Assembly (NCBI GenBank): GCA_903887485.1
Contig: CAISPV010000077.1
Span: forward strand, 1 to 50,180
Reading direction: 5' to 3'
DNA length: 50,180 nucleotides
Source of the DNA: an uncultured Desulfobulbaceae bacterium
Lineage (GTDB): Bacteria; Desulfobacterota; Desulfobulbia; Desulfobulbales; Desulfocapsaceae
The stretch's first letter is position 1, and each line of letters begins with the position of its first letter. The notes below the pieces were generated by a model, which was not told the DNA's origin, searched no databases, and saw only the letters and a program-made list of their open reading frames with translations. The position numbers were made by a program, and so were the translations under genes. Shown here piece by piece: positions 27,910 through 43,280 of the stretch.

Positions 27910-27963
27910 AGGGGATCTTTGCAAATGTGCTGTTGCCGCTTGCGAAGATCCCCTGCTTTTTTT
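27910..27963 (+). terminator. Rho-independent terminator after the first TSUP unit
   Basis: AGGGGATCTT (27910-27919) pairs with AAGATCCCCT (27945-27954), with further GCAA/TTGC pairing inside the loop, followed by a seven-T run at 27957-27963. It lies between this unit and the convergent regulator gene. Confidence 0.85.
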
Positions 27964-29323
27964 ATCCTTCCACCTCATATTTCTTGATCTTGCGCCACAG
28001 AGAGACCCGGTCAATCCCCAGCGCTTGGGCGGCCAGGCTCTTATTGTCCCCTTGTTCCTTTAATACCCATTCAATATAGGCCCGCTCTTGGTCGGCAAGA
28101 CTGGGGATGGTGCCACTCTTCCGGCGGAAGGTCTGAAAACAGGTGCCCCGCAGGTCTTCGGGCAGATGCCCGACCTCAATGGTGTCGCCGCTGGCAAGGG
28201 CCACCCCGCGCTCAATGATATTTTCCAACTCCCTCACATTTCCCGGAAAATCATAGCGGAGCAGGATGTCAACCACCTCTGGGTCAATATTGCTGACCTC
28301 TTTATTCATTAATGCCCCGTATTTCTTGATGAAATACTGAATGAGCAAGGGGAGGTCATCCTTGCGCTCGGCCAGGGGGGGGATGTTGAGGGCAACAACA
28401 TTGATCCGGTAAAACAGATCCTGACGGAAATGGCCCTGTTTTACCTCTTCTGCCAGATTCCTGTTGGTGGCTGCCAGAAAACGGACATTGACCTGGATTG
28501 GCGCGACCCCGCCCAGATGCATCACCTCTTTTTCCTGGATCACCCGGAGGAGTTTCACCTGCATGGCCAGAGATATCTCGGTGATCTCGTCAAGAAAAAG
28601 GGTGCCGCCATCGGCCATCTCCACCAATCCTTTTTTGGCCTCCATGGCGCCGGTGAAGGCCCCTTTCTCATGGCCGAAGAGTTCATTGGCCAGCAACTCC
28701 TCTTGAAAGGCTCCGCAATTCACGGATATCAGGGGGCCATTGCGGCGGTTGCTGCAGGCGTGGACAAAACGGGCCAGCAGTTCCTTGCCGGTGCCCGACT
28801 CTCCACAGATGACGATGTTGCTGTCAGAGGCGGCGACCTGACTGGCCATGGCCAGCAACTTCTTCATGCCCGGATTGTTCGTAACCAGGCGGGCTTCTCC
28901 CTGGAAGACCTTCAGAGATTCACGCAACCTGCTGTTTTCCCGTTTCAGCCCGATCTTTTCCAGCGCCTCCCGGACAATCTTCCGCGCCTCGTCCAGTTTG
29001 TAGGGCTTGGCGATGTAGTGATAAGCCCCTGCCTTCATTGCCTCAATGGCGGAGTCCACGGTGGCATAGCCGGTGATCATGATCACCTCGATATCGGGAT
29101 AGAGCTCCCGGACGCGCTTTAAAATCTGCATCCCGCCCACCTTTTCCATCTTCAGATCAGTCAGGACAAGATCAAAATTATGCTCTTCCAGAAGCTGGAG
29201 GGCGCGCTGGCCACTTTGTGAGGCCGTCACATCGTACCCTTCTTTTTTCAGGACATGCTTGAGATTGTGCAGGGCTATCTCTTCATCGTCAACGATCAGT
29301 ATCTTTGCGGTCTCATTACTCAT
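27962..29323 (-). CDS. NtrC-family sigma-54 response regulator, 453 aa
   Basis: Receiver domain (ILIVDDEE, phosphoacceptor Asp in DLVLTDLKM, TGYATVD, PYKLDE), AAA+ domain with Walker A GESGTGKE, sigma-54 contact loop GAFTGA (GHEKGAFTGAMEAKKG), Walker B GGTLFLDEI, and a Fis-type C-terminal helix-turn-helix (KSLAAQALGIDRVSLWRKIK). It activates sigma-54 promoters when phosphorylated. I chose ATG 29323 (MSNETAKILIV), with AGGAAA upstream; an in-frame start at 29539 would lie inside the kinase gene. The kinase stop is one base before this ATG, so the pair is one operon. Likely target: the sigma-54 promoter at 31050. Confidence 0.93.
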   Translation of the reverse strand: MSNETAKILIVDDEEIALHNLKHVLKKEGYDVTASQSGQRALQLLEEHNFDLVLTDLKMEKVGGMQILKRVRELYPDIEVIMITGYATVDSAIEAMKAGAYHYIAKPYKLDEARKIVREALEKIGLKRENSRLRESLKVFQGEARLVTNNPGMKKLLAMASQVAASDSNIVICGESGTGKELLARFVHACSNRRNGPLISVNCGAFQEELLANELFGHEKGAFTGAMEAKKGLVEMADGGTLFLDEITEISLAMQVKLLRVIQEKEVMHLGGVAPIQVNVRFLAATNRNLAEEVKQGHFRQDLFYRINVVALNIPPLAERKDDLPLLIQYFIKKYGALMNKEVSNIDPEVVDILLRYDFPGNVRELENIIERGVALASGDTIEVGHLPEDLRGTCFQTFRRKSGTIPSLADQERAYIEWVLKEQGDNKSLAAQALGIDRVSLWRKIKKYEVEG

Positions 29324-29324
29324 A

Positions 29325-30770
29325 TTAACTTTCCTGTTGTGTTTCCGGTAACCATATAATGAAGGTGGTGCCAAGACCGGGCCTGCTGTCCACGGTGATG
29401 CTCCCTCCATGCCACTCAATAATGTCATGCACAATAAACAGGCCAAGACCGGAGCCTTTTCCCACGTCCTTGGTGGTAAAAAACGGGTCAAAGATCTTCT
29501 TGAGCTGTTCCGCCTCAATCCCCGGCCCGTCATCTTCAATCAATATCTCCACTCCGTTATAGCTGGAATAATATCCGGTATTGGAGGCGGAAATCCAGAT
29601 ATGGCCATTTTCCTCGATGGCGTCTATCCCGTTTTTGATCAGGTTGAGCAGAACCTGCTGCATCCGCTGTTTGTCAGCAATGATGGTGAGGTCTTCCGGG
29701 ATTTCGACGGCGATGATGACGTTATCAGGTGCGTGTCCCCGCACGAGCAGGATGGTCTCATCCGTCAGCTTTTTGAGGAGGAGCTTTTCTTTTTTGAACT
29801 CCTTGATCCGGGAAAATTCGAGAAGGGTTTTGACAATATCCCGGGCCTTGTCTGCCTGGGTCTCAATCTGGGTAATGAGATTTTTCTTGAATTCCACATC
29901 GCCTTCTTCGATTTCCTCACTCAGGATCTGGGCCGAGGTGGAGATATTGGACAAGGGATTGTTCAGTTCATGGGCCACCCCGGATAACAGGGTGCCGAGG
30001 GCTGCCAGTTTTTCCGATTGTACCAGTTGATGCTGCCGGATCTGTAATTCCTTGGTCATGCGGTTAAAGGCGGTGAGCAGTGAGCGGATCTCCTGTTCTC
30101 CTTCACCTACCGAAATTTCGACAAAATCACCTTGGGAAATGATCTTGGTATATCCCTCCAGCATTTTTAGAGAGTTGACTACCCGTCTCCCTAAAAAAGC
30201 GGCGATGGCCAAGGCGGCAACAAAGAGACAGAGCATCGAGACCAGGAGGATGTTCTGGGTGGTCTTTAGGAGCAGCTTGATCTTTTGTTTGACGGTATCC
30301 CTGGTCTTCTCGCCAAACTCGGTGAGTTCTTTGCCGGAAGACCGGACCTGTTCTTCCAGATGCTCCAGGCTGGCGCTGCTTTCATTTTTGTTACCAATCT
30401 TCTGATCATATCCATGTAACTGCCCCATATATTCATTATAGGCGGTAATGACATGTGCCAACCGTTGAATATCAGCGGATGAAACTACCAGATGCAGGGC
30501 GGAAGAATTATTTTCAAAGATGTCCCGTATCTTCAGCCAGTAGAGTTGATTTTCCTGAAAGTCCTTTTCCTGGTGGTAGAGGAAGTAATTTTTTTCGAAT
30601 CGGCGCACCTCCAGGGTCGTATTGAAAAAATCTTCAACAATTTCACTGAAGGTCACCTGTCTCTCAACCCGTTTGACGATGGCAAAAGTTAGGATAGCCG
30701 AGCCCACCGTGATGATGAGCAAGAGATAAAATCCGTAGGTAATTTTCTTGCGGATGCCAAGTTGAAACAT
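29325..30770 (-). CDS. Membrane histidine kinase (HAMP-HisKA-HATPase), 481 aa
   Basis: Two membrane helices (about 12-32 and 173-194) enclose a helical periplasmic sensor of about 140 residues, like four-helix-bundle sensors. HAMP (about 195-248), phosphoacceptor His267 in LSGVAHELNNPLSN, and a complete ATPase domain (N box NLIKNGIDAI, DDGPGI, FFTTKDVGKGSGLGL) follow. Partner of the NtrC-type regulator directly downstream. AAGG precedes ATG 30770. The sensed signal is unknown; the neighbouring exporters suggest a sulfur anion or envelope stress. Confidence 0.93.
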   Translation of the reverse strand: MFQLGIRKKITYGFYLLLIITVGSAILTFAIVKRVERQVTFSEIVEDFFNTTLEVRRFEKNYFLYHQEKDFQENQLYWLKIRDIFENNSSALHLVVSSADIQRLAHVITAYNEYMGQLHGYDQKIGNKNESSASLEHLEEQVRSSGKELTEFGEKTRDTVKQKIKLLLKTTQNILLVSMLCLFVAALAIAAFLGRRVVNSLKMLEGYTKIISQGDFVEISVGEGEQEIRSLLTAFNRMTKELQIRQHQLVQSEKLAALGTLLSGVAHELNNPLSNISTSAQILSEEIEEGDVEFKKNLITQIETQADKARDIVKTLLEFSRIKEFKKEKLLLKKLTDETILLVRGHAPDNVIIAVEIPEDLTIIADKQRMQQVLLNLIKNGIDAIEENGHIWISASNTGYYSSYNGVEILIEDDGPGIEAEQLKKIFDPFFTTKDVGKGSGLGLFIVHDIIEWHGGSITVDSRPGLGTTFIIWLPETQQES

Positions 30771-31153
30771 GATCAGCCTTTTTTATTTAAGAGATTTTGG
30801 ATCAGTTAGAGGCAAGGGTGATCCTGTCTGTATTCTGATTATGTACACCATACTTCCAGCCTGGAATAAAGTCCAGAGGTTGCATTTAGTAACAGTGTGT
30901 TTTTTATTGTAACAATATTATAACATGTCAATTTTATTAAGTTATATTTTTTTACGTGCTGCCTGTGTTGCATAATCACAACGAAAGCACTTGGACGAGG
31001 TATTGGTGTAACTATTTGAAACAAAGTGTAAAAAAACATTATGACCGAGTGGCATGGTTGTTGCTTTATGAGGTGGTGCAAGACAGAGTCGCTCAAGGGG
31101 TTAGCCCTGGTAGCTTACTGAATGAACCAATTTTTTTTATTACGAAGCAACCC
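30771..31153. promoter_or_regulatory. Divergent region: kinase promoter and sigma-54 promoter of the Usp/TSUP unit
   Basis: Minus strand: extended -10 TGTTATAAT (complement of 30917-30925) for the kinase/regulator operon. Plus strand: TGGCATG-GTTG-TTGCT at 31050-31065, with GG and GC exactly ten bases apart, an almost perfect sigma-54 -24/-12 element; transcription should start near 31076, 78 bases before ATG 31154. AT-rich dyads upstream could hold regulator sites. An in-frame start at 30956 lies before the promoter and is rejected. Confidence 0.7.
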
Positions 31154-31678
31154 ATGAGTCTTTTGGCAAACATTTTAGAGAAACTTGAAAAATCCATGAC
31201 CGCGGCAACCTTTGCCGAGGCCGGTGAGTTCGAGATCGCCCGTCAGTTTCTTAAACCTAACAAGAACGCTTATAAGCGTGTGCTCCTTGGGACCGACAGA
31301 ACGGAGATCAATCCCAAGGCCTTGCAGTATGCCATGCGGCTCTGCCAGCGTATTGGCGGCAATTTGGAGATTTTCCATGTGATTCATGGGGTTGAAGAGA
31401 GCGGTGCTTTTGTAACGGGACAAAAGAGCAGATTGGTTGAGGAGGTTCAAAGTTCATTACAGCAGAAGGGCATTGTCTATCAGTTGGTCATGGGAGAAGA
31501 GTGTCTGGCAGAGGAGGTTCTTAAATATACAGTCAACAGGCGGAATCTTCTCTGTGTTGTCTTTGATGCCATAGAGGCTGGCAATGCAAGTTGCCAGAAG
31601 GCCAGAGAAACCATGCTGGCAAAATTTCATACATTGCACTGCCCGGTGGTGGTTTATGCCGAACAACCGGTGGCGTGA
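31154..31678 (+). CDS. Usp-like single-domain protein with AEAGE N-terminal motif, 174 aa
   Basis: Residues about 45-170 follow the universal-stress-protein alpha/beta order (RVLLGTDRTEINPKALQYAM, LEIFHVI, and CPVVVYAEQPVA as last strand), although the ATP loop Gly-x2-Gly-x9-Gly is not obvious, so it may not bind ATP. The N-terminal 40 residues contain MTAATFAEAGEFEIARQFLK, nearly repeated in the next protein. Start ATG 31154 follows the sigma-54 promoter; the ribosome site is weak. First gene of the unit that includes the second exporter. Confidence 0.65.
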   Translation: MSLLANILEKLEKSMTAATFAEAGEFEIARQFLKPNKNAYKRVLLGTDRTEINPKALQYAMRLCQRIGGNLEIFHVIHGVEESGAFVTGQKSRLVEEVQSSLQQKGIVYQLVMGEECLAEEVLKYTVNRRNLLCVVFDAIEAGNASCQKARETMLAKFHTLHCPVVVYAEQPVA

Positions 31679-32124: not shown

Positions 32125-33462
32125 ATGAAGAAGTTATTGCTTATCTGCCTGTTTGTCCTCGCCGCGTTGCCAGTTTTGACCCAGTCTGCCTTTGCCGCTG
32201 GTGCCGGGCCATCCAAGGATATGCTTAAGGGCATTGTTACCCAGGTCAATGGTGCAGAGCGCACGGTAGTTTTTGTGAAAGATGGTACCAAGGAAGTCAG
32301 GACCCTGGCCCTTGGTGAAAAGATGAAAATTGAAGATATGAAGATGAACACCAAGGTCTTGATCAACCTTGATAAACATGCCGGCGAAAATGTGATGAAA
32401 GATTTCTCGGTCATGTTCATGGATATGACCGTGAGCAAGCTTTTGGCCCTGCTCGCCATTGGTGCCATTGGTGGACTGCTCTCCGGCTTTATCGGTTCCG
32501 GCGGTGCCTTTGTCATGACCCCGGCCATGATGTCTCTTGGCGTACCAGGTGCTGTGGCCGTAGCCAGTAATATGTGCCACAAGTTCCCCAAGGCCATGGT
32601 TGGTGCTTACAAGCGTTGGAAATACGGTCAGGCCGATATTAAGCTCGGTCTGGTCATGGCCTCCACTGCCATTATTGGGGTGCAGATCGGCATCGAGATC
32701 CAGAAATACATCCTGCATAAATTTGGTGGTGCTGGCTCAAACCTTTACATCAGTGCAGTTTTCATGGTTGTCCTGGTTTTTGTTGGCGGTTATGTTTTTT
32801 ACGATGCCTGGAAGATGGTGAAGGGTGGTGGTGAAGAGACGGTGAGTAAACTGGCTATTGCCATGCAGAAGATCAATCTTCCCCCAATGATTCATTTCAA
32901 GACTGCCAATGTGACCATCTCTGCCTGGATCACCGTTCCGGTTGGTGTCCTCACCGGTATGCTGGCCGCGACCATCGCTGTGGGTGGCTTTGTCGGCGTC
33001 CCAGGTATGATCTATGTGGTTGGTGTCTCTGCTGTGGTTGCCAGTGCTACTGAGTTGATCATTGCCTTTGTTATGGGCGCTTGGGGTTCCGTCCAGTGGG
33101 GATTAAGCGGTTTGATTGATATCCGTCTTTCCCTGTTGCTCCTGGCCACCTCTCTTATCGGCGTGCAACTTGGGGCCTTGGGTACAACCTATGTTAAGGA
33201 TTACATCATCAAGGTGGTTATGGCCACCACCATGCTGATTGTTGCGGTCAGCCGTGGCGTCATGGTTCCCGGTTACCTGGCTGATGTTGGATTCATCGCC
33301 CCGATCAATGCGGGTACTATTACCGTGCTCGAAAGAGTCAGTTACTGGTCTCTGCTCCTTGCCCTTTGTTCTGCTGGTCTGATCATTGTTGTGGCTATGG
33401 TCAAGGGAATGACTGCGGACCGGAGAAGCAGAAAGGCCCTTACAGGAGTCCAACATGGCTAA
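32125..33462 (+). CDS. TSUP exporter with signal peptide and extra periplasmic domain, 445 aa
   Basis: A cleavable-type signal peptide (residues 1-24, ending SAFA-A) leads into a small beta-rich domain (about 30-95: GIVTQVNGAERTVVFVKDGT ... KVLINLDKHAG) before about eight membrane helices. TSUP motifs: IGAIGGLLSGFIGSGGAFVM and LTGMLAATIAVGGFVGVPGM. Compared with the usual 250-300 residue TSUP protein it is long because of the extra domain, which resembles OB-like folds. AAAGGAG ribosome site. The end overlaps the tandem Usp gene by eight bases, so they are translated together. Confidence 0.87.
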   Translation: MKKLLLICLFVLAALPVLTQSAFAAGAGPSKDMLKGIVTQVNGAERTVVFVKDGTKEVRTLALGEKMKIEDMKMNTKVLINLDKHAGENVMKDFSVMFMDMTVSKLLALLAIGAIGGLLSGFIGSGGAFVMTPAMMSLGVPGAVAVASNMCHKFPKAMVGAYKRWKYGQADIKLGLVMASTAIIGVQIGIEIQKYILHKFGGAGSNLYISAVFMVVLVFVGGYVFYDAWKMVKGGGEETVSKLAIAMQKINLPPMIHFKTANVTISAWITVPVGVLTGMLAATIAVGGFVGVPGMIYVVGVSAVVASATELIIAFVMGAWGSVQWGLSGLIDIRLSLLLLATSLIGVQLGALGTTYVKDYIIKVVMATTMLIVAVSRGVMVPGYLADVGFIAPINAGTITVLERVSYWSLLLALCSAGLIIVVAMVKGMTADRRSRKALTGVQHG

Positions 33463-34309
33463 ATACCGGAAGATCCTGGTGGCCTATGATGGTTCATCCT
33501 CTGCTAAAAATGCCCTTTCCCTGGCCGGGAAACTTGCCAGGGAAGACAAGAGCTGGATCAAGGTGTTGGCTGTGGTGCCAAAGTATGAGGGCGATCTTGA
33601 TCTTATCGGTGTTGCTAATATCAAAGAGGCCATTGCCGGGCCGGGTGAGCGGTTGCTGGCCGAGGCCCGGAAGATTGCCGAGAGTGAAGATATTCACATC
33701 CTGACCGATCTGGAACAAGGCGAGCCGTATGAACAGATCGTGCGTGTAGCCGCTGAGGAGAACTGTGATCTCATTATCATGGGTCGCCGGGGCGGTGGTA
33801 ATCTGGAGCGGGAACTCATGGGCAGCGTTACCGCCAGGGTTATCGGCCATACCAGTAAAGATGTCCTGGTAATTCCGGAAAAGAGCGCTCTTGCCTGGGG
33901 GAATATTCTGTTGGCAACGGATGGTTCGCCATCGTGTGATAACGCTCTGGCCAGATCGCTGGAGATCGCCCAGGAGCGAGGTTCAAAATTTGCTGCGGTT
34001 TCTGTGGTCTATACTAATGATGAGTTTTACGCCATGGGGCAGACCATTATTCAAGGGTTGTACAAGGAGGCAGACAAGGTGCTGGACAAGGTGAAGAAGT
34101 GGGCCGGCGATCTTGGGGTGCAAGCGGAAATATTCATAAAAGATGGAGAACCCCATCTGGCCATTGTTGATCTGGCCACAGAACGGGCAAGCGATCTTGT
34201 GGTCATGGGTTCCCATGGTCGGAAAGGATTGACCCGCCTGCTCATGGGCAGCGTTACCGAACGGGTTATCGGCTATGCCAATTGCCCAGTTTTAGTTTGT
34301 CATATATAA
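33455..34309 (+). CDS. Tandem universal stress protein, 284 aa
   Basis: Two UspA domains (about 1-140 and 145-284). Each begins with the ILVAYDGSSSAKNAL / ILLATDGSPSCDNAL strand and carries the ATP-binding signature: IIMGRRGGGNLERELMGSVT in the first and VVMGSHGRKGLTRLLMGSVT in the second, so both are predicted to bind ATP. Overlaps the exporter end by eight bases behind AGGAGT; last gene of the unit. Tandem Usps are common partners of transporters; a regulatory role on the exporter is inference. Confidence 0.93.
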   Translation: MAKYRKILVAYDGSSSAKNALSLAGKLAREDKSWIKVLAVVPKYEGDLDLIGVANIKEAIAGPGERLLAEARKIAESEDIHILTDLEQGEPYEQIVRVAAEENCDLIIMGRRGGGNLERELMGSVTARVIGHTSKDVLVIPEKSALAWGNILLATDGSPSCDNALARSLEIAQERGSKFAAVSVVYTNDEFYAMGQTIIQGLYKEADKVLDKVKKWAGDLGVQAEIFIKDGEPHLAIVDLATERASDLVVMGSHGRKGLTRLLMGSVTERVIGYANCPVLVCHI

Positions 34310-34437: not shown

Positions 34438-36096
34438 TTACCTCAACGCCACAATTTTTGTTGCCCCCACGTAGTCGCGGCTTTCAAAGCCAGTCATGGT
34501 TGTCATCTTTCGGGTCAGCTCGCCGATATTCTTCAGATTTCTGATAATGGTCTGCACGTCGGCCGTGAGTTCCGCAGATTCCAGTTCTTCTTCCAGCAAC
34601 TGGGCTGTGCCGAGAGCGGCAAAGAGGGGGGAATTGATCTCATGGGCGACTGTCCCCGCTAGTTCCACCACCCCCTGCAGCTTGACCCGCTCCAGATGTT
34701 CCTGCTCCAGTTGCCGCTTGGCGGTGATATCGCGAATGATCTCGATCACAAATTCAACGTCTCCATTCTCTCCCAACATGGGTGAGGCCGTTCGTTCAAC
34801 CCAGTGTGGGCCATCAGCCTTGACCAGTTGATGTTCGTGGCTGGCGGTCTGACCCGTTGCCAGTACCTGTTCCACCGGGCAGTTCTCAGCAAGGCAATCC
34901 TGGTCCTGCCACAGGGTGTGATAGTCAGCGCCCAGAAGCTCCTGTTCCCCCTTGCCCATGGCGGCAAGAAAGACCCGATTGGCCAGCACCAGATGTCGGT
35001 TTTTGTCCACTACCAGAAGTTGTGGGCGGATGCAGTTGAGGATATTGGCAACAAATCGTTCACTCTCTTCCACTTGATTGAAAAGAAGGGTTATCTGCTG
35101 ATAGGTTCTTGCATTCTGGATGGCGGTGCCGCCGATTTCGGCGATGGTGACAGCAAAGTTGATCTCGCTGTTGGTAAAATAATGGTGGACGTCTGAGAGG
35201 ATACGGATGATGCCGATGACCTCCCCTTTGACCTTGAGAGGAACGGCCAGCAGGGATTTTATTCCCTCTTTTTCCATATCGATTTTGTAGAGCACCCGCT
35301 CGTCGCGGCTCACATCATAAATGGAGACCGGGGCGCCGGTGAGGGCAACGGCGATATTTCTTTCTCCTTCAATCTGTCCCCGGTGCTGATATTCCTCGGA
35401 GATCCCATGGGCGGCCACCAGTTCCAGATGGTTGGTCTCCGGCCGCAGCAGGCGGATAGTGCAGGCCTTGCAGCCCATACTGCGGGGCAGCCGTTCGACA
35501 ATCGTATTCAGGACTGAATCAAGATCCAGGGTGGCGTTGACCAGGGCCGAGATATTCTGCACCTCCTGCATGAAGTCAATCTGATTTTCCATTTCCTTGA
35601 ACATCCGGCCATTGGAGATGGCAATGCCCACCTGCTCGGCCAGTGCCATGGAAAAAGAGATCTCTTCCGCGGTGAAGATCCGGTTGCGTCGGGTTAGCAG
35701 TCGCAGGATGCCGATGACCGAATCCTGAAAGAGGATGGGCAGGGTGAGCACGCTCTTGATCCCCTCCTGGCTGATCAGGCCGTGTTCACTGAAATGGCTG
35801 TCCTGGTCCACATCGGTTTTGGCCACGGGATATCCCGAATTGATCATGGTCATGGTCTCGTCGGTATCAATATGGCTGCGGGAAAGGTATTCCCTGGACA
35901 GGCCGTGGGCCGCGCCCATGACAAAGGTGTTGGTCGAGGGGTCAAGCAGACGGATGGTGGCGGCGTCGATATCGAGCAGACCGGGCAGCTCCCGGACAAT
36001 GGTATCCATCACCTGCTGGTGATCGAGTACCATGCTGATCAGCTTGGTCACCTTTTGCAAGACCTTGAGATATTTCAGCTCGTTGATTGGTTTCAT
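34438..36096 (-). CDS. GAF-GAF-PAS-DHp sensor protein lacking the ATPase domain, 552 aa
   Basis: Two GAF domains (about 15-165 and 185-330), a PAS domain (about 350-470, including HLVLANRVFLAAMGKG) and a HisKA helix pair with His485 in AGTVAHEINSPLFAALG. The protein ends 67 residues after this histidine, in RDYVGATKIVALR, so no N, G1 or G2 box of a histidine kinase ATPase exists. The same ending occurs in other Desulfobacterota proteins known to me, so it is not a recent frameshift. It may be phosphorylated by a partner kinase or act as a scaffold. Last gene of the leftward cluster; weak ribosome site. Confidence 0.85.
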   Translation of the reverse strand: MKPINELKYLKVLQKVTKLISMVLDHQQVMDTIVRELPGLLDIDAATIRLLDPSTNTFVMGAAHGLSREYLSRSHIDTDETMTMINSGYPVAKTDVDQDSHFSEHGLISQEGIKSVLTLPILFQDSVIGILRLLTRRNRIFTAEEISFSMALAEQVGIAISNGRMFKEMENQIDFMQEVQNISALVNATLDLDSVLNTIVERLPRSMGCKACTIRLLRPETNHLELVAAHGISEEYQHRGQIEGERNIAVALTGAPVSIYDVSRDERVLYKIDMEKEGIKSLLAVPLKVKGEVIGIIRILSDVHHYFTNSEINFAVTIAEIGGTAIQNARTYQQITLLFNQVEESERFVANILNCIRPQLLVVDKNRHLVLANRVFLAAMGKGEQELLGADYHTLWQDQDCLAENCPVEQVLATGQTASHEHQLVKADGPHWVERTASPMLGENGDVEFVIEIIRDITAKRQLEQEHLERVKLQGVVELAGTVAHEINSPLFAALGTAQLLEEELESAELTADVQTIIRNLKNIGELTRKMTTMTGFESRDYVGATKIVALR

Positions 36097-36175: not shown

Positions 36176-39025
36176 TTAAGCTTTCCGGATATTGGTCTTG
36201 ATATACTTCAACGGCGGTGTTCCCGTCCATTTGCAGGCCACGTTGGGCGGCATCAGGACATTGGTGTTGAATCCCTTGAACTGCGGGTATTTGGGGTCGC
36301 CTTCCAGTCCGTATTTATGGCCAAAGCCACCGGCCGCCGCCAGGACTCCCTGGCGGATATCCCAGGTGATGAAGGCCTTGGCTCTGGTCTCGCCCCAGGG
36401 CGAGGCGATCACCACCTCGTCACCGCTTGTAATCCCTAAATTCTTGGCATCGACAAAGTTGATCCATACCGGGTTGGTGCCGCACTGTTTCATCAGGGCC
36501 ACATTCCAGAAGGTGCTGGTATGCTCATGTTCCAGAACCCGGAAATAGCCGGTGATCATGGGGAACTGCTCATCCGGCTGGAGCTCCGGCCAATCCGCCC
36601 ACGGATCTTTGTAGTCGGGCAGTCCATCCACCCCGTTTTCTTCGGCCAGGGGATTCATGAAATTGTACTTGCCGGTCTTGGTGTTTCCTGAAGCGCCATA
36701 TCCGGCAGGCGGATTCATCGAGCCCCAGCTCTTGTACTTGTAGAACTCCTGTTGATTGGTGATGGAGTAGCCGGTCTTGCGCAGTTCCTCAAGGCTGATC
36801 GACTGGTTGCGCATCTGGTTTTCCATGTACTCCTCGTCACTTTTCCAGGGGAAATATTCACCAAAGCCAAGGCGTCTGGCCAGTTCCGAGAAGATGGAGA
36901 CGATGGACCGGGACTGGTACATGGGGTTGATCGCCTTCTGCCCGAGCGAGAGGAAGGCCTCGTACATCCAGTCGGAGACCACCCGGCTCTGCTCCAGATA
37001 GGTGCAGTCCGGCAGCACCACGTCGCAGAGTTCGGTGGTGTTGGACATGAAGCAGTCAATGGAACAGGTGAATTCCAGCTTTTCAATGGCGCGCCTGATG
37101 GAGGGTTCGTTGCCGCAGGACATGACCGGATTGCCGAAATAGCAGAGCAGGGCCTTGAGTTTGCCCGCGTCCACATCCTTTTCAAAATAGCCGGGGATCC
37201 AGCCGCTCCACAGATGGCCCTTGTCCAGTTTGACCTTGGCCGCATTGTTCGGGGGCTTGGGTTGGTCCTCGGCCCAGGGTGAGGCCAGTTTGATCTTGCT
37301 GACCAGCGCCGGGCCGCCGGGGGCATCAAAGCAGCCCATCAAGGCATTGAGGGCGATCAGGGCCTGAACGGCGTGCAGGGTGTTGGCGCCCTGGGAGACG
37401 CCGGTCCAGGAGTTGGCGCCGGCGGCAGGCGATGCGGCGGCAAATTCATGGGCCAGCCGTCGGATGGTCTCGGCCGAAACACCGCAGATCTCCGCCGCCC
37501 ATTCGGGAGTGCGCTCAATGCCGTTCTCTTCGCCCAGCAGACGTTTCTGAAAGGCCTCGAATCCATAGGTCCATTTTTCGACAAAGTCCTGGTTGTACAG
37601 TCCCTCCTTGACCAGCGTATGACACATGGCCATGGCCATGGCCCCGTCGGTGCCCGGTTTGATGGCGATCCATTCGGTGGCGATGGCTGCGGTCTCGCAG
37701 CGGCGGGGATCAACCACCACCAGTTTGGCCCCGTTCTTGACCGCCTGCTTGAGCAGGGTGACCTTGCGCTGGCCGGCCGAGGTGGCCAGCTCATTGATGC
37801 CAAAGAGGAGGATGAACTGGGAGTGGGCATAGTCAATCCAGGGCCGTTTCTCGCTGTAGTTTTTCTCGTTGGCCATGCGCGCCGGGTTGTCGCACATCTG
37901 GCGATGGCTGACCTTGTTGGGTGTGCCGTAGGCGGCCATCACCGCGTCATGGCACCACATGTTGAAGTCGTTGCCCTGGTGGAAACCGACCTGAACCGGA
38001 TCAATTTTTTTCAGATTCTGGACGATCCGCTCCATGGCCTCGTCCCAGCCGGCCTTGCGAAAGCGGCCGTTCTCTTTGATCAACGGGGTCTTGAGCCGAT
38101 AGGCACTGTAGGTGTTGTTGTGGGCGTTGGCCCCCTTGATGCAGAGCCTGCCGCCACCCTTGGGATCTCCGGCCAGACCCTTGCAGCCGGTGATGATGTT
38201 GTCCTTGACCTTGACCTCCTGGCCGCAGAGTCCCAGGCAGATGTAGCAGTGGGTGTTGACGCTGCGCAACTTCTCCGGCACCACGGCCCCAACGGCTATG
38301 GTGGTGTACTCCTCGCCCAGATCGAGGGTGGCGACGGCCGCCGCCATCTGTTCGAGGATGGTGACATAGGCCTGACTGGTGTTTTGTTCTGAAAGCATGG
38401 AGAACGAAAACATCCGTTCATTGAAAAGATAACTCATGGTCAGTTCGGAGAGGCCACGATAGAAGGAACTTTTGGCGGCCGAGGCGAGCACCGCACAGAA
38501 CTCCACGGTCCAGCCCATAAGGTGGTTGCGCAGGAAGGTGAACTGTTGTTGCTGACCCTCGTTTGTATGGGCCGCCCGCTCTGCCAGATAGCGCATGAAT
38601 TCGAGCTCGACGGCGATATGGTCATCGAGATCAAAATAATCGGGATTCTTGTGGACCCCGGCCTTATTCAGGGCAGCGCGGATGGCGACAACCGGTTCCT
38701 GCATGACCAGCGGTTCCCGGGTGGCGTAACAGGATTCATAGGGAAAGGCCGGATTGTTGCCGGCGTTCAAGAAAAGGTCGGCATACTCGTAGCGCAGTTC
38801 ATTGAAGACGTCTTCCGCACTTCCTGATTGGAGCCCTGAGGTCATCTTGGTAAGACCGGAGCAGAAATCCTGGATGGTGCAGATCTCTTGTAGTGCATCG
38901 ATCCGATCTAAAAAATCGCGGCTCTTCATCTGTGTTATCAGATGCAGGGGGATCTCGTCTCGATACATGGCAGAAAGAAAGTGATAGAGCTTGGCCCGGG
39001 CCAGATTTATTGCCTTAATATCCAT
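36176..39025 (-). CDS. TorD-like chaperone fused to molybdopterin oxidoreductase, 949 aa
   Basis: Residues about 1-210 resemble the TorD/DmsD/NarJ maturation chaperones (NLARAKLYHFLSAMYRDE, ELRYEYADLFLNAG, DDHIAVELEFMRYLAE). From about 255 a DMSO-reductase-family catalytic chain follows: a [4Fe-4S] site at Cys260, Cys263, Cys267 and Cys295, then Cys378 (YGTPNKVSHRQMC) as the candidate molybdenum ligand, and a C-terminal molybdopterin dinucleotide domain. No Tat signal, so it is probably cytoplasmic. Related chains include polysulfide, thiosulfate and arsenate reductases; the substrate cannot be read. GGAGG before ATG 39025. Shares an operon with kinases and a receiver. Confidence 0.85.
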   Translation of the reverse strand: MDIKAINLARAKLYHFLSAMYRDEIPLHLITQMKSRDFLDRIDALQEICTIQDFCSGLTKMTSGLQSGSAEDVFNELRYEYADLFLNAGNNPAFPYESCYATREPLVMQEPVVAIRAALNKAGVHKNPDYFDLDDHIAVELEFMRYLAERAAHTNEGQQQQFTFLRNHLMGWTVEFCAVLASAAKSSFYRGLSELTMSYLFNERMFSFSMLSEQNTSQAYVTILEQMAAAVATLDLGEEYTTIAVGAVVPEKLRSVNTHCYICLGLCGQEVKVKDNIITGCKGLAGDPKGGGRLCIKGANAHNNTYSAYRLKTPLIKENGRFRKAGWDEAMERIVQNLKKIDPVQVGFHQGNDFNMWCHDAVMAAYGTPNKVSHRQMCDNPARMANEKNYSEKRPWIDYAHSQFILLFGINELATSAGQRKVTLLKQAVKNGAKLVVVDPRRCETAAIATEWIAIKPGTDGAMAMAMCHTLVKEGLYNQDFVEKWTYGFEAFQKRLLGEENGIERTPEWAAEICGVSAETIRRLAHEFAAASPAAGANSWTGVSQGANTLHAVQALIALNALMGCFDAPGGPALVSKIKLASPWAEDQPKPPNNAAKVKLDKGHLWSGWIPGYFEKDVDAGKLKALLCYFGNPVMSCGNEPSIRRAIEKLEFTCSIDCFMSNTTELCDVVLPDCTYLEQSRVVSDWMYEAFLSLGQKAINPMYQSRSIVSIFSELARRLGFGEYFPWKSDEEYMENQMRNQSISLEELRKTGYSITNQQEFYKYKSWGSMNPPAGYGASGNTKTGKYNFMNPLAEENGVDGLPDYKDPWADWPELQPDEQFPMITGYFRVLEHEHTSTFWNVALMKQCGTNPVWINFVDAKNLGITSGDEVVIASPWGETRAKAFITWDIRQGVLAAAGGFGHKYGLEGDPKYPQFKGFNTNVLMPPNVACKWTGTPPLKYIKTNIRKA

Positions 39026-39042: not shown

Positions 39043-39429
39043 TTATACGTTGATACTGCTTTTTTTATCCTTGGCTTTCAAGACCTTTTCCACCTTCTCT
39101 TCCAGTTCTTCGCGGTCAATGGGTTTGACGCAGTATTCGTCCGCCCCGAGGCTGATGGCCTCACGGGCTGTTTCCACCGTCGGATAGCCGGTGAGCATGA
39201 TGACCCGCATCTCCGGGGCCATTGCTTTGAGCAGCCCCAGCACCTCGATGCCGCTCATCTTCTTCAGCTTGATGTCAAGGATGGCCAGATCCACCTTGTT
39301 GGTCTTGGCGTAGGCAATGGCCTCGTCCTCTTCGGTAAAGGTGTGCACATTATGACCCTTCTTGGTTAAAATCTTGCCAATGAGTACGGTCGCATCCTGG
39401 ACATCATCCAATGCTAATATTTCAGCCAT
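39043..39429 (-). CDS. Stand-alone receiver-domain response regulator, 128 aa
   Basis: Single CheY-like domain: acidic pair in ILALDDVQD, phosphoacceptor Asp in LAILDIKLKK (about residue 52), Thr in MLTGYP and Lys in CVKPID. No output domain; the tail is lysine-rich. GGAGGGTG ribosome site before ATG 39429. Between the PAS kinase and the molybdoenzyme fusion, so probably a phosphate carrier or a partner of the DHp-only protein downstream. Confidence 0.93.
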   Translation of the reverse strand: MAEILALDDVQDATVLIGKILTKKGHNVHTFTEEDEAIAYAKTNKVDLAILDIKLKKMSGIEVLGLLKAMAPEMRVIMLTGYPTVETAREAISLGADEYCVKPIDREELEEKVEKVLKAKDKKSSINV

Positions 39430-39491: not shown

Positions 39492-41060
39492 TCATTCGCG
39501 GACACTTGTTGTTTCAACCAGCGTTACCGGAATCTTGATGTGAAACGCTGCTCCCGGCATTTTTTCGCCAGACGGCCTGTCGGCAACCGGACTTTCCACC
39601 TCTATCCGTCCGCCATGGTCCTGGATGATCCCGTAGGAGACCGATAGTCCCAGGCCGGTTCCCTTGCCCACCGATTTGGTGGTGAAAAACGGGTCAAAGA
39701 TCCGGGCCTGGATCTTTTCCGGGATGCCATGGCCGGTATCCTGGAAGGTAGCCACCACTTCATGGGTGTCAGGATGATAGCGGGTGATCATGGTCAGCTC
39801 CCCTGACCCCTGTTGTTCCATGGCATGATGGGCATTGTTGACCAGATTGACAAAGACCTGCCGCAACCGTTCGGTATCGCCGACAATGAGGGGCAGATCC
39901 CGCGCAAAATCCTGTCGCACATTGATGTGGTCCATGTTCAGGGAGTGCTGGGTCACGGCAATTACATCCCTCAAGATCTCATTTATAGAGATATCTTCCC
40001 GGGCACTTTCCGATTGCCGGGAAAACTTGAGCAGATCGGCCACGATCTTCCGACAGGCCTTGGTCTGCCGTTCAATGATGGCCAGGTTTTGTCCCTGGTC
40101 GCTCTCCGGCGTAAAATCGTCCATCATTAACTGCGAGTATCCAAGGATGATTCCAAGGGGGGTGTTGATCTCATGGGCCACTCCGGCTGCCATCTGGCCT
40201 ATTGAGGCCATTTTTTCACTGGCGGCCAGTTGGACCATCATCGTTTTGATCCGGGTGAGATCCTTGACGATGCCTTCACAACCGCTGAAATGGCCGGTAT
40301 CATCATACACAGCAGTGGCGGAGAGGAGAACGTAGATACCTGTGCCATCCGTTTTGGCGAATTCCACCTCCAGATCTTCCACAAACCCCTGAGCGAGCAG
40401 GGTTTCATAGTATTTGTCCAGATCGTCTTCATCCTTGAATATATCGCGGAGATTCAGTACCGGGGCACCCTGGATGGGATAGCCAAGCATCTCAAGGCCG
40501 GCGCCATTCATGGTCAGAAGCTGGTTTGTGGCATTACTGAAATAGACCATGTCCTTGGAGTTGTTAAAAAGATTCCGAAATTTTTTTTCCGAGGCCGAGA
40601 GCTCAAGCGTTCGTTCGGCAACCATCTCTTCCAGGTGCAGGTTCATCCCCTGAAGCTGGTCGGCCGCGATTTCCAGTTGATCGTAGGCCTCTTTCAGGCT
40701 CCTGGCCTTCTTGTTAATGGCTTGGTAGCCCTCAATGCCCTTATGGTAGTAGATGGTGACGGCTGCCAAGGAGATCATGAGCAGGGTGTTGGTGCCTCCG
40801 GAAATGGGAGAGATGGCCTGCCACAACTCTTGCTTGTCAGCAAAGAGCAGGACATGTTTCAGCAGATGTCCTATGGCCCGGGAGACGGCAAAGGCGGCAA
40901 GGGTCATACAAAAGTAAAAGAGAAATCCCCAGAGAAAATTCTCCGGCTGTTTTTTGGTCAGAAGCCAGGCATAGCGCAGGGAAAGAAACGAAAAGATAAT
41001 GATGAACAGCGATCCCATCATATCGGTGACAATGGCTGGAGACAGGGGCAGGCTGGTCAT
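39492..41060 (-). CDS. Membrane PAS histidine kinase, 523 aa
   Basis: Three membrane helices (about 15-34, 42-60, 90-105) lead into a coiled coil, a PAS domain (about 157-270), DHp with His296 ([14 protein letters not shown]) and a full ATPase domain ([32 protein letters not shown]). ATG 41060 overlaps the upstream stop in ATGA, so it is translationally coupled to the membrane protein before it; an in-frame start at 41327 would lie within that gene. GGAAAAGA ribosome site. The membrane part and its partner likely sense a signal together. Confidence 0.92.
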
Positions 41061-41536
41061 TTCTTTTCCGCCGCATCTGAGGAGCGATAGAGGGAGCGCA
41101 GGCTCAGGAAGAGGAAAAACAGGGCTGGGACGCTGAGCAGGTGGTCCAGGGTGGCGCTGAAATAGATCAGTTTGATGACGGAGAGAGGCCCCGTTATTTG
41201 TGACGAAAAGTATCCTGACGGATGGATGATGTCGGAATCGGCAATGTGAAATCCCAGCCAGTGGCCGGAAAAGGCCACGAGATTCCAGAGGATCATGAGA
41301 ACGCAGAAGATCTGAAGATAGCGCCACCCCTTGCCGGGAAAGGCGTTCCGCCCCACATCCCAGAAAAGATAGCCCAAGGCTGCCGAATAAAAGAGGTGGG
41401 CCAGTTGGTGCACATAAATGCTCTCTGTGGCACCATGCGATTGTAGTGCCCAGGCCTGATCCGGGGCAAGAAGCAGGGCCAGGGGCAGGAGCAGCATGAA
41501 CGCATTGATTCTTCTGATTCTTCCAAATAGATTCAT
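41057..41536 (-). CDS. Membrane protein coupled to the PAS kinase, 159 aa
   Basis: Signal-like N-terminus (residues about 10-31, ending WALQSHG) and about four membrane helices with several histidines near helix ends (VHQLAHLFY, FSGHWLGFH, DIIHPSGYF, LDHLLSV), as in heme- or metal-binding membrane sensors. Family not recognised. Its stop shares ATGA with the kinase start, so the two are made together and may form one sensor. ATG 41536 has a poor ribosome site; residue 14 (ATG) is an alternative start. Lies about 65 bases after a candidate sigma-54 promoter start. Confidence 0.7.
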   Translation of the reverse strand: MNLFGRIRRINAFMLLLPLALLLAPDQAWALQSHGATESIYVHQLAHLFYSAALGYLFWDVGRNAFPGKGWRYLQIFCVLMILWNLVAFSGHWLGFHIADSDIIHPSGYFSSQITGPLSVIKLIYFSATLDHLLSVPALFFLFLSLRSLYRSSDAAEKK

Positions 41537-41858
41537 AGGGCCGGGGAGCAGAAAATATTTCTGTGTTGAGGTTGATGAACAGGAATCAGCTCGATGTGAC
41601 GGTAGGTACTATGCACATTGAGCGCCAGAAAAAGAAATGAGAGGAAAAAACAGAAAATGTTTTGTGATGTAGAGCTGTTATGTGTGGTCCCTGTTGGGAG
41701 TAGTCATGGTGAATAGCGTGTTTTTCTTTCAATGACCCTTTGTGGACTGCAACAAAAAAGAGACAGTGAAACATTCAGGTGTCACTTCTCTCCTGATGTG
41801 GCTGTCCCGTCAGGATGTGGAAGGAGGTGGGGGATGAATTTTTTCCCCCGGGTATCAT
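41537..41858 (-). promoter_or_regulatory. Candidate sigma-54 promoter of the sensor/molybdoenzyme operon
   Basis: On the minus strand TGGCGCT-CAAT-GTGCA (complement of 41612-41627) has GG and GC ten bases apart and matches most of the -24/-12 consensus. Transcription would begin about 41600, ahead of ATG 41536. The upstream neighbour gene encodes a sigma-54 activator. No gene is supported in these 322 bases. Confidence 0.55.
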
Positions 41859-43280
41859 TCAGGCTGTTCTAAAGATGTCGGCATCGATTTGATGACGGCG
41901 CATCAGCCGTTGAAAGGCCTGACGTTCCATGCCGCTGGCCTTGGCCGCGGCCGAGACATTGCCCTTGGAGTTCGTCAGGCAGTGCCGCAGATAGGCGCTG
42001 GTGAAGGGGCCGATCACCTCTTCCTTGGCCTGTCGATAGGGGAGCTGGTACACGCAGGCGGGAACCTGGCCTTGCGCTTCTCCCTTCCTGCCGTTGTCCT
42101 CGAAGCTGGTCAGTTCATGGGGGGTGATCTTGCGGCTGTCGGAGAGGAGGACTGCCCGGTTGATGATATTCTGCAATTGACGGACATTGCCCTTCCACTG
42201 CCGGCGCATCAGGCATTGCAGGGCCTCGGGTGTGAATTCCATCCCTTCCCGGTCATATTCCCGGGCATACTGGACCAGAAAATGCTGGGCCAGCAGGGGG
42301 ATATCGTCTTTGATCTCCGCCAGGGTGGGCAGGGTGACGGTCATCACGTTGAGGCGGTAGAAGAGATCTTCCCGGAATTCCCCCCTGGCCATCTTGGCCT
42401 CAAGGTCCTGGTTGGTGGCGGCCAGGACCCGGACATCAACCTTGATGGTCCTGGTCTGGCCCAGGGGTTGGATCTCTTTTTCCTGCAGGACACGCAGGAG
42501 TTTGGTCTGGAGTCCCAAGGGGAGATCGGCGATTTCGTCAAGGAAGATAGTGGAGCCATCCGCTTCCAGAAAGAGGCCGGTCTTGTCATGATCGGCGCCG
42601 GTGAAAGCCCCCTTGCAATAGCCAAACAGTTCACTTTCCAGGATCTGCTCAGGCAGGGCCGGACAGTTGACCGTGATCATCTTTTTGGCGGCCCGTTTGC
42701 TCATGGCATGGATGGCGCGGGCGGCCACTTCCTTGCCGGTGCCTGATTCCCCGCGAATGAGCACGGTGGCGTCGCTTTTTCCCAGCCGCGACAGGAGGTC
42801 AATGGTTCGTTGCAATGGCGGTGAATGGCCCACAAATCCGGTCAGTCCGTTTTTACTGGTCAGGCGCTGCTGGAGTTGCAGGTTTTCGCGCAGCAGGTAG
42901 GTCCGTTCCAGGGCGCGTCGGACTACCCGGCTGATCTTGTCGTTATCAAAGGGTTTCTCAAAAAAATCATAGGCGCCGTCTTTCAGGGCCTGGACGGCGA
43001 TTTCAATGGTGCCGTAGCCGGTCATGATGATGGTGCTGATGGTGGGGTCAATGGTGGTGATGGACTGCAGAAGCTGCAGGCCGTCCATGTCCGGCATGAT
43101 GATATCGGTGAGCACTACATCCGGCTCCCAGCTCCTGACCAGTTCCACGGCCTCCAGGCTTGAGGAGGTCAAGGCAACATCGCAGCCGCATTTTTTGGCC
43201 AGGACTTTTTTGAGCAGATCAAGGAGATCCTGTTCATCATCAACAATTAACAACCGCTTTGCTTTCTGTTCCTGCTGCAT
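41859..43280 (-). CDS. NtrC-family sigma-54 response regulator, 473 aa
   Basis: Receiver (LLIVDDEQD, Asp in DVVLTDIIMPDMDG, MTGYGT, EKPFDND), AAA+ domain (GESGTGKE, GYCKGAFTGADHDKTG with the intact GAFTGA loop, GSTIFLDEI) and Fis-type DNA-binding end (GNVSAAAKASGMERQAFQRL). AAGGAAA precedes ATG 43280. It stands just upstream of, and in the same direction as, the membrane sensor/kinase/molybdoenzyme operon with its candidate sigma-54 promoter, so it probably activates that operon after phosphorylation by the PAS kinase. Confidence 0.93.
   Translation of the reverse strand: MQQEQKAKRLLIVDDEQDLLDLLKKVLAKKCGCDVALTSSSLEAVELVRSWEPDVVLTDIIMPDMDGLQLLQSITTIDPTISTIIMTGYGTIEIAVQALKDGAYDFFEKPFDNDKISRVVRRALERTYLLRENLQLQQRLTSKNGLTGFVGHSPPLQRTIDLLSRLGKSDATVLIRGESGTGKEVAARAIHAMSKRAAKKMITVNCPALPEQILESELFGYCKGAFTGADHDKTGLFLEADGSTIFLDEIADLPLGLQTKLLRVLQEKEIQPLGQTRTIKVDVRVLAATNQDLEAKMARGEFREDLFYRLNVMTVTLPTLAEIKDDIPLLAQHFLVQYAREYDREGMEFTPEALQCLMRRQWKGNVRQLQNIINRAVLLSDSRKITPHELTSFEDNGRKGEAQGQVPACVYQLPYRQAKEEVIGPFTSAYLRHCLTNSKGNVSAAAKASGMERQAFQRLMRRHQIDADIFRTA

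Follow-up and report, generated by a model that had tools for sequence, protein, structure and literature searches.

A TorD-type chaperone joined to a DMSO reductase family enzyme in an uncultured Desulfobulbaceae bacterium and its relatives, with a recurrent signalling neighbourhood

Chaperones of the TorD/DmsD/YcdY/NarJ type are normally proteins separate from the molybdoenzymes they serve. PhsA is exported, and has a twin-arginine translocation (Tat) signal together with iron-sulfur (Fe-S) and membrane subunits, while acetylene hydratase (PDB 2e7z) is a single subunit with one Fe-S cluster and a cysteine ligand to the metal. In the MolyABC (MOLY) cluster of sulfur disproportionators, a molybdoenzyme with a Tat signal is accompanied by a separate TorD-type chaperone and an Fe-S subunit (PMC12998232). 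Here we describe a gene on a 50,180-nucleotide stretch (the window) from an uncultured Desulfobulbaceae bacterium (contig CAISPV010000077.1 of assembly GCA_903887485.1), in which such a chaperone is covalently linked to its presumed client and no Tat motif is present. The single polypeptide consists of a TorD/DmsD-fold chaperone, a weakly conserved linker and a complete catalytic chain of the dimethyl sulfoxide (DMSO) reductase family.

Architecture of the fused protein

The gene and its parts are as follows (conservation refers to 46 aligned fused proteins).

36176..39025, minus strand: open reading frame (ORF) of the fused protein, 949 residues; intact frame, full-length relatives
38411..39025, minus strand: TorD/DmsD-type chaperone domain, about residues 1-205 (Pfam, profile match to PDB, fold search)
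38276..38410, minus strand: linker, about residues 206-250, without a Tat motif and with the lowest conservation of all parts
36179..38275, minus strand: DMSO reductase family catalytic chain, residues 251-949 (Pfam, fold searches)
38105..38266, minus strand: [4Fe-4S] domain, residues 254-307, with Cys260/263/267/295 (Pfam; cysteines invariant in 46 of 46)
37892..37894, minus strand: codon of Cys378, the predicted molybdenum or tungsten (Mo/W) ligand in an HRxMCDN motif (alignment with 2vpw and 2e7z; invariant in 46 of 46)

The frame runs uninterrupted from the ATG at 39025, which is preceded by a GGAGG stretch, to the stop at 36176. Pfam places Nitrate_red_del (the TorD/NarJ family, PF02613) at residues 54-178 (1.3e-28; 100.2 bits against a cut-off of 22.2), followed by Molybdop_Fe4S4 (254-307), Molybdopterin (310-717) and Molydop_binding (828-941), each above its cut-off. 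An AlphaFold model of the full protein, built on the 46-sequence alignment, has a mean predicted local distance difference test score (pLDDT) of 86.7 and a predicted template modelling score (pTM) of 0.87. No chaperone was found among the best 50 structural matches (VIA-align) of the whole model, because the catalytic domain fills that list; the chaperone domain was therefore folded by itself. Residues 1-235, modelled with their own alignment, reached a pLDDT of 90 and gave seven PDB matches below E 1e-3, namely three YcdY chains, three DmsD chains and 1s9u, which is titled 'putative anaerobic dehydrogenase component' and which we take to be a DmsD. Further, residues 1-201 match the PDB TorD 1n1c by profile, and both the profile cut-off and the fold place the domain in the TorD/NarJ chaperone family (redox enzyme maturation proteins, REMP). 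Core motifs around YADLFLNAGxNPxFPYES and DLDDHIxVELEFM are mostly retained in copies down to 31% identity; 18 of the 205 positions of the TorD part are invariant among the 46 sequences, and its mean top-residue fraction is 0.62 vs 0.44 for the linker.

A Tat-type motif ([ST]RRx-type, ahead of the Fe-S motif) is present in none of the 46 fused proteins, so the enzyme is probably cytoplasmic. An earlier note, made from the letters of the window alone, had put the gene at the coordinates given above, which are right (the strand is minus), and had read it as an N-terminal TorD-type chaperone joined to a molybdoenzyme. The Pfam scan and the YcdY and DmsD fold matches bear this out, and dispose of the note's own reservation that the N-terminal region might not have a TorD fold; its claim that the protein lacks a Tat signal and stays in the cytoplasm agrees with the motif survey.

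In the catalytic chain, Cys260/263/267/295, Lys297 and Cys378 are invariant in all 46 proteins, and Cys378 aligns with the metal-ligand cysteine of 2vpw (PsrA/PhsA) and of 2e7z. Three Pfam models above cut-off and the fold assign the chain to the DMSO reductase family (Mo/W-bisPGD), and its structural matches comprise PsrA/PhsA 2vpw, ArrA 6cz7, formate dehydrogenases, periplasmic nitrate reductases and acetylene hydratase. The best sequence match and the best Foldseek match are both 2vpw, which is tied with ArrA 6cz7 in a second structural search.

The chain does not qualify as PhsA, formate dehydrogenase or acetylene hydratase. It shares the Fe-S motif and the cysteine ligand with PhsA/PsrA, but scores 307.7 bits against an NCBIfam equivalog cut-off of 694 for PhsA, lies on a different branch, and has neither a Tat signal nor an adjacent Fe-S subunit, nor Fe-S or membrane subunit genes nearby. 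For the formate dehydrogenase alpha subunit (TIGR01591) the score is 237.2 bits against a cut-off of 666.25. Formate dehydrogenases have a histidine directly after the metal ligand; the residue after Cys378 is aspartate in 46 of 46. With acetylene hydratase it has in common a single subunit, one Fe-S cluster and a cysteine ligand, but the two are on different branches, and Asp13, which is given as an acetylene-hydratase-specific residue just after the second Fe-S cysteine (PMC12096430), is replaced in all 46 (Gly in 24, Leu in 20, Ala in 1, Asn in 1).

Distribution and descent of the fusion

The full-length fusion was found in 13 of 58 related genomes, the window's own included; eleven of the 12 others are 73-93% identical to the window's protein and one is 49% identical. 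Three more of the 58 (G004, G010, G035) hold the fusion in pieces at contig ends. In a sample of 395 genomes across the phylum it is full length in 11 (matches to E 1e-75), and the nearest unfused proteins among the matches listed are about 34% identical. A contig scan, limited to two narrow peptide patterns and so no proper test for fusions beyond the phylum, yielded 66 loci. The join between chaperone and enzyme is spanned in 57 of them, five show one side of it where a contig ends, and in the remaining four (L088-L091, from other groups) the catalytic part alone was matched. The 62 fusion loci are titled deltaproteobacterial or plain 'Proteobacteria', and their hosts include Desulfocapsa, Desulforhopalus vacuolatus, Desulfofustis, the cable bacteria Electronema and Electrothrix, and Desulfosarcina widdelii.

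A sequencing or assembly join of two genes, the other reservation voiced beforehand, is practically out of the question. We found no support for it, and it is refuted by the recurrence of the join in numerous separate assemblies, including those of the isolates Desulforhopalus vacuolatus DSM 9700 and Desulfofustis glycolicus DSM 9705 and the complete genome of Desulfosarcina widdelii PP31. The phylogeny of fused and separate forms that had been proposed as a check places the fused forms in one clade with full support (SH-aLRT, the Shimodaira-Hasegawa-like approximate likelihood ratio test, 100) in two trees (18 fused of 42 rows; 11 fused of 34 rows), both of them quick trees with SH-aLRT as their only support values. 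The first tree left out L091, whose frame is short, and L004, for which the wrong domain had been chosen; the second further left out L088, L089, L006, L108, TorA and nine rows (seven fused, L101 and L023), removed to cut long branches and computing time. The fusion is old and real, and its carriers are sulfate reducers and their kin.

Two candidate matches turned out to be no fusions. Escherichia coli plasmid CP027641.1, where 87% of the query was matched, has a separate 181-residue TorD-like ORF followed by an enzyme with a Tat signal, and on contig C10 of genome G057 the match runs across a stop, where a TorD-like gene of its own immediately precedes the gene of a Tat enzyme. At locus L139 (437-3415, minus strand) a TorD-like gene abuts a Tat enzyme gene, with the stop at 2651 and the next ATG at 2650; a fusion could arise from an arrangement of this kind.

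Besides the fused protein, the TorD family profile matches once more in the window's genome, on contig C102 (L003 272-3929). There a separate 196-residue TorD-type protein is found with a 757-residue enzyme carrying a TRRKFLQ signal and a 270-residue Fe-S protein, and the enzyme branches with PhsA rather than with the fused clade. Like the fusion, the MOLY cluster pairs a molybdoenzyme with a TorD-type chaperone in related organisms; unlike it, and according to PMC12998232, MOLY has a separate chaperone, a Tat-signal enzyme and an Fe-S subunit, so that the C102 cluster resembles MOLY and the fused locus is not a MolyA/MolyC locus. Contig C81 (L140 4151-6205) of the same genome encodes an unfused 684-residue molybdoenzyme without a Tat motif, around which no TorD-like or Fe-S gene was seen in 9 kb.

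The signalling neighbourhood and its exchangeable enzyme slot

Around the fused gene, the window contains the following features (C1 to C5 are the gene clusters that recur at other loci).

41859..43280, minus strand: C3, response regulator with a sigma-54 activation domain (Pfam)
41612..41627, minus strand: sigma-54-like site TGGCGCTCAATGTGCA before the C4-C1-C2-enzyme-C5 operon (consensus match)
41057..41536, minus strand: C4, 159-residue protein, a membrane protein by reading (no Pfam family)
39492..41063, minus strand: C1, PAS-HisKA-HATPase histidine kinase (Pfam; a longer ORF to 41327 overlaps the next gene)
39043..39429, minus strand: C2, receiver-only response regulator, 128 residues (Pfam; neighbour in relatives)
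34438..36096, minus strand: C5, GAF-GAF-PAS-HisKA protein directly downstream of the enzyme (Pfam; no ATPase domain found)
32125-33462, plus strand: TauE/SafE permease of another subtype than that recurring at other loci, with about 108 extra N-terminal residues

Gene clustering over the 62 loci found C1 in 33, C2 in 32, C3 in 25, C4 in 25 and C5 in 24. A TauE/SafE-type permease (C6 in 23 loci, C12 in 4; 27 of 62 together), so identified by Pfam on three such proteins, is often accompanied by a membrane protein of about 200 residues. Many of the locus contigs are short; of the 25 that are well flanked (at least 5 kb to either side), one or more of C1-C5 lie within 8 kb in 18, and C6 or C12 is present in 12. 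In seven more distant genomes of the phylum, the signalling set is present but rearranged in G321 (59% identity) and present in part in G127 and G384; no C1, C2, C4 or C5 lies near the enzyme in G345, G399 and G420, G399 having a lone 31% match to C3, and G165 shows C2 alone, at a contig end. Because the sets vary in this way, among well-flanked loci and among distant genomes, the link between enzyme and signalling module is recurrent but not universal. The earlier note's observation that the gene sits among signalling genes thus extends, by Pfam and by the recurrence of C1-C5, to many relatives; beyond what it had noticed, the module also occurs without the fused enzyme, with another molybdoenzyme or with none.

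Several further observations concern this neighbourhood. A PhnD-type periplasmic binding protein occurs in six loci (L044, L058, L059, L064, L077, L079; one, L058, was tested), adjoins a long kinase or the fused enzyme in several of them, and is a possible external sensor. Near the permease of the window are universal-stress-protein genes at 30956-31678 (Pfam) and 33455-34309 (by reading), and a few kb further down, at 27962-30770 (minus strand), lies a second pair of kinase (HAMP-HisKA-HATPase) and sigma-54 activator. The phage receiver search gave weak matches only, at most 35% identical among the matches listed.

The module was then compared across the 58 related genomes, of which 43 have C4 and 28 have C5. 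Both are present in all 16 genomes with the fused enzyme; the other 42 have C4 in 27 cases and C5 in 12. The 16 fused-enzyme genomes make up 16 of the 28 with C5, and 15 of them have, to the extent that their contigs reach, the order C2-enzyme-C5; G027 is the divergent case. Four of the 28 (G014, G028, G051 and G013, the last pieced together across two contigs) have, between C2 and C5, an unfused enzyme of about 700 residues and an Fe-S protein of 150-168 residues; one (G024, at a contig end) has the unfused enzyme behind a permease, and seven (G003, G005, G009, G017, G019, G020, G026) have nothing between C2 and C5, G017 and G019 carrying an unfused enzyme elsewhere on the same contig. The unfused enzyme is also found in the operon of four genomes without C5 (G021, G022, G030, G033), and 11 further genomes with C4 stand outside this count.

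The two unfused slot enzymes that were scanned score 551 and 549 bits with the PhsA profile (cut-off 694) and show no TorD domain in Pfam, and no Tat motif was flagged in eleven such enzymes. Seven of them are united in a clade (SH-aLRT 100), this clade joins 2vpw PhsA (99), and a single clade of unfused slot enzymes and fused enzymes is rejected by the approximately unbiased (AU) test (p-AU 0.0008), the tested clade having been named after the first tree was seen. Tree placement and AU rejection therefore indicate that two molybdoenzymes of different branches occupy one slot in one signalling operon. In G014 (contig C65, L123 4121-17020) and G013 (contig C22, L131), two genomes of the same genus, a complex I-like (nuo) gene run, assigned by reading and BLAST, follows the unfused enzyme and its Fe-S protein.

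The two slot enzymes also differ in their partners. Of 60 loci, the window among them, 8 have a ferredoxin-type motif (CxxCxxCxxxC[PVIA]) no further than 6 kb from the fused gene, and the window has none; 24 of the 60 loci have 6 kb on both sides, and four of these have a match. The matches fall in unlike proteins or in a chance frame, except that L063 and L078 have a protein in common, which by reading is unrelated. Applied to the surroundings of the unfused slot enzyme, the same scan is positive for 10 of 11 loci; the exception, L127, is truncated at a contig end. In 9 of the 11 the Fe-S gene is the immediate neighbour of the enzyme gene, and in L136 it is set apart. There is no conserved ferredoxin-type partner subunit beside the fused enzyme, in line with the earlier reading, from the window alone, that no electron-transfer or membrane subunit gene adjoins it; the neighbourhood comparison agrees.

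For sigma-54-like sites, we used a rule of our own (fixed GG and GC, with 8 or more of 10 letters matching), which gives consensus matches and not proof. In a thinned set of 25 loci, three of which (L084, L085, L087) were kept without an identity test as they hold no full enzyme, such sites precede C4 in 4 of 10 cases (0.55 expected), the enzyme in 5 of 22 (1.09) and C6 in 3 of 11 (0.42), together 12 of 43 vs 2.1 expected. The counts are 0 of 13 for C1 (0.91), 2 of 14 for C2 (0.53), 1 of 8 for C3 (0.41) and 0 of 9 for C5 (0.61), together 3 of 44 vs 2.5, and 0 of 4 for C9 (0.06) and 0 of 2 for C8 (0.08). Without thinning, and thus with near-copies included, the counts are 10 of 25 for C4 (0.9 expected), 14 of 55 for the enzyme (2.1) and 9 of 23 for C6 (0.9), compared with 2 of 33 for C1 (1.8), 2 of 37 for C2 (1.1), 1 of 26 for C3 (1.7), 0 of 24 for C5 (1.2) and 0 of 6 for C11 (0.1). 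At several Desulfobacterales loci, a separate sigma-54-like site precedes the enzyme gene itself. The pattern fits control by the neighbouring sigma-54 activator C3.

Possible roles of the fused enzyme

We propose, as a reading about evenly balanced between right and wrong, that the protein is a soluble cytoplasmic Mo/W-bis(pyranopterin) oxidoreductase with a dedicated TorD-type chaperone built in, switched by sigma-54 and likely acting on a sulfur substrate. The chaperone domain would hold the apo-enzyme and help insert the cofactor in cis, a mode of loading that the fusion naturally suggests, and the enzyme would stay in the cytoplasm and receive electrons from a general soluble carrier. Kinase C1, together with C4, and the sigma-54 activator C3 would switch the enzyme on, and in many relatives a TauE/SafE-type permease may be switched on with it. 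The substrate is most likely a sulfur compound, e.g., thiosulfate, polysulfide or another sulfur oxyanion, a guess prompted by the TauE-type neighbours, the PhsA-like enzyme that takes the same slot and the sulfur-metabolising hosts.

Several points weigh against this proposal. None of C1-C5 is present in 7 of the 25 well-flanked loci (L044, L050, L072, L075, L078, L080, L086), among them both well-flanked loci of cable bacteria, and C6 and C12 are missing from 13 of the 25. Only L033 of eight same-genus loci compared has a C6 or C12 gene in the operon, and the TauE gene of the window, besides its different subtype, is 2.7 kb from the enzyme and on the opposite strand. Even among the putative target genes, most lack a sigma-54-like site (12 of 43 have one, as given above), and over the whole window the pattern count is not above chance (24 vs 30.0 expected), which leaves the counts by gene position as the informative test. 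Finally, the fused enzyme is off the PhsA branch and, at 307.7 against 694 bits, below the PhsA cut-off, so that the sulfur substrate rests on neighbours and hosts.

That the enzyme is instead a cytoplasmic sensor of redox state or substrate, signalling to the kinase, to the lone receiver or to the GAF/PAS protein, seems to us unlikely, and so does the wider version in which a conserved phosphorelay operon has an interchangeable molybdoenzyme slot and the self-chaperoned enzyme is a sensor and not a metabolic enzyme. Its position between the receiver and GAF/PAS genes, the lack of an electron-transfer partner nearby and the presence of C4 and C5 somewhere in all 16 fused-enzyme genomes of the 58 would suit a sensor. 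However, the module stands with an empty slot in 7 of the 28 genomes with C5, the fused enzyme occurs without any of C1-C5 in the seven well-flanked loci listed above, the enzyme's own sigma-54-like site in several Desulfobacterales loci is what one would expect of an output gene, and the alternative slot enzyme comes with an Fe-S protein, followed in two genomes by complex I-like genes. The enrichment of sigma-54-like sites before the operon, the enzyme and the TauE-type permease favours a regulated output. The earlier note had left the choice between a redox sensor and a regulated reductase; the regulated enzyme gains from these sites and from the neighbouring C3, and the sensor half is the weaker, given the seven loci without C1-C5.

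The TorD part might also be a relic, or a regulator such as an oligomerisation or docking domain, without a loading role, which we regard as quite unlikely. In favour of this, the protein lacks a signal peptide to which the domain could bind, but the core motifs are largely kept down to 31% identity with 18 of 205 positions invariant, and a chaperone role in the TorD family need not involve export, since the relative NarJ serves the cytoplasmic NarGHI (PMC4464133). Very unlikely, in our judgement, is a non-redox W/Mo enzyme like acetylene hydratase, which is likewise soluble, without a partner subunit and equipped with one Fe-S cluster. Its structure 2e7z is the second-best and third-best PDB match in two sequence searches, its W-ligand cysteine aligns with Cys378, and no electron partner lies near the fused gene; the presence of other residues (Gly, Leu, Ala, Asn) in place of Asp13 in all 46 proteins and the separate branching of the fused clade and 2e7z speak against it.

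A TorD-molybdoenzyme fusion is not reported in the literature searched, outside the coverage of which lay most subscription journals and all supplements. In the portions of text available, it is absent from PMC10609526, PMC12998232, PMC3739170, PMC9751629, PMC12142623, PMC13047784, PMC12096430 and PMC4464133, and the words 'fused' and 'fusion' do not occur in the part of PMC4464133 that was available. The parts belong to known families; to the extent searched, the one-chain architecture and the exchangeable slot are new. The hand-over of cofactor by TorD-type chaperones is hard to study, because the complexes are short-lived and the signal peptide complicates their interpretation. A chaperone-enzyme that occurs naturally in one chain and without a signal peptide would allow tests of cofactor loading in cis, and a signalling operon in which two molybdoenzymes of different branches replace each other provides a natural comparison for the role of the regulator.

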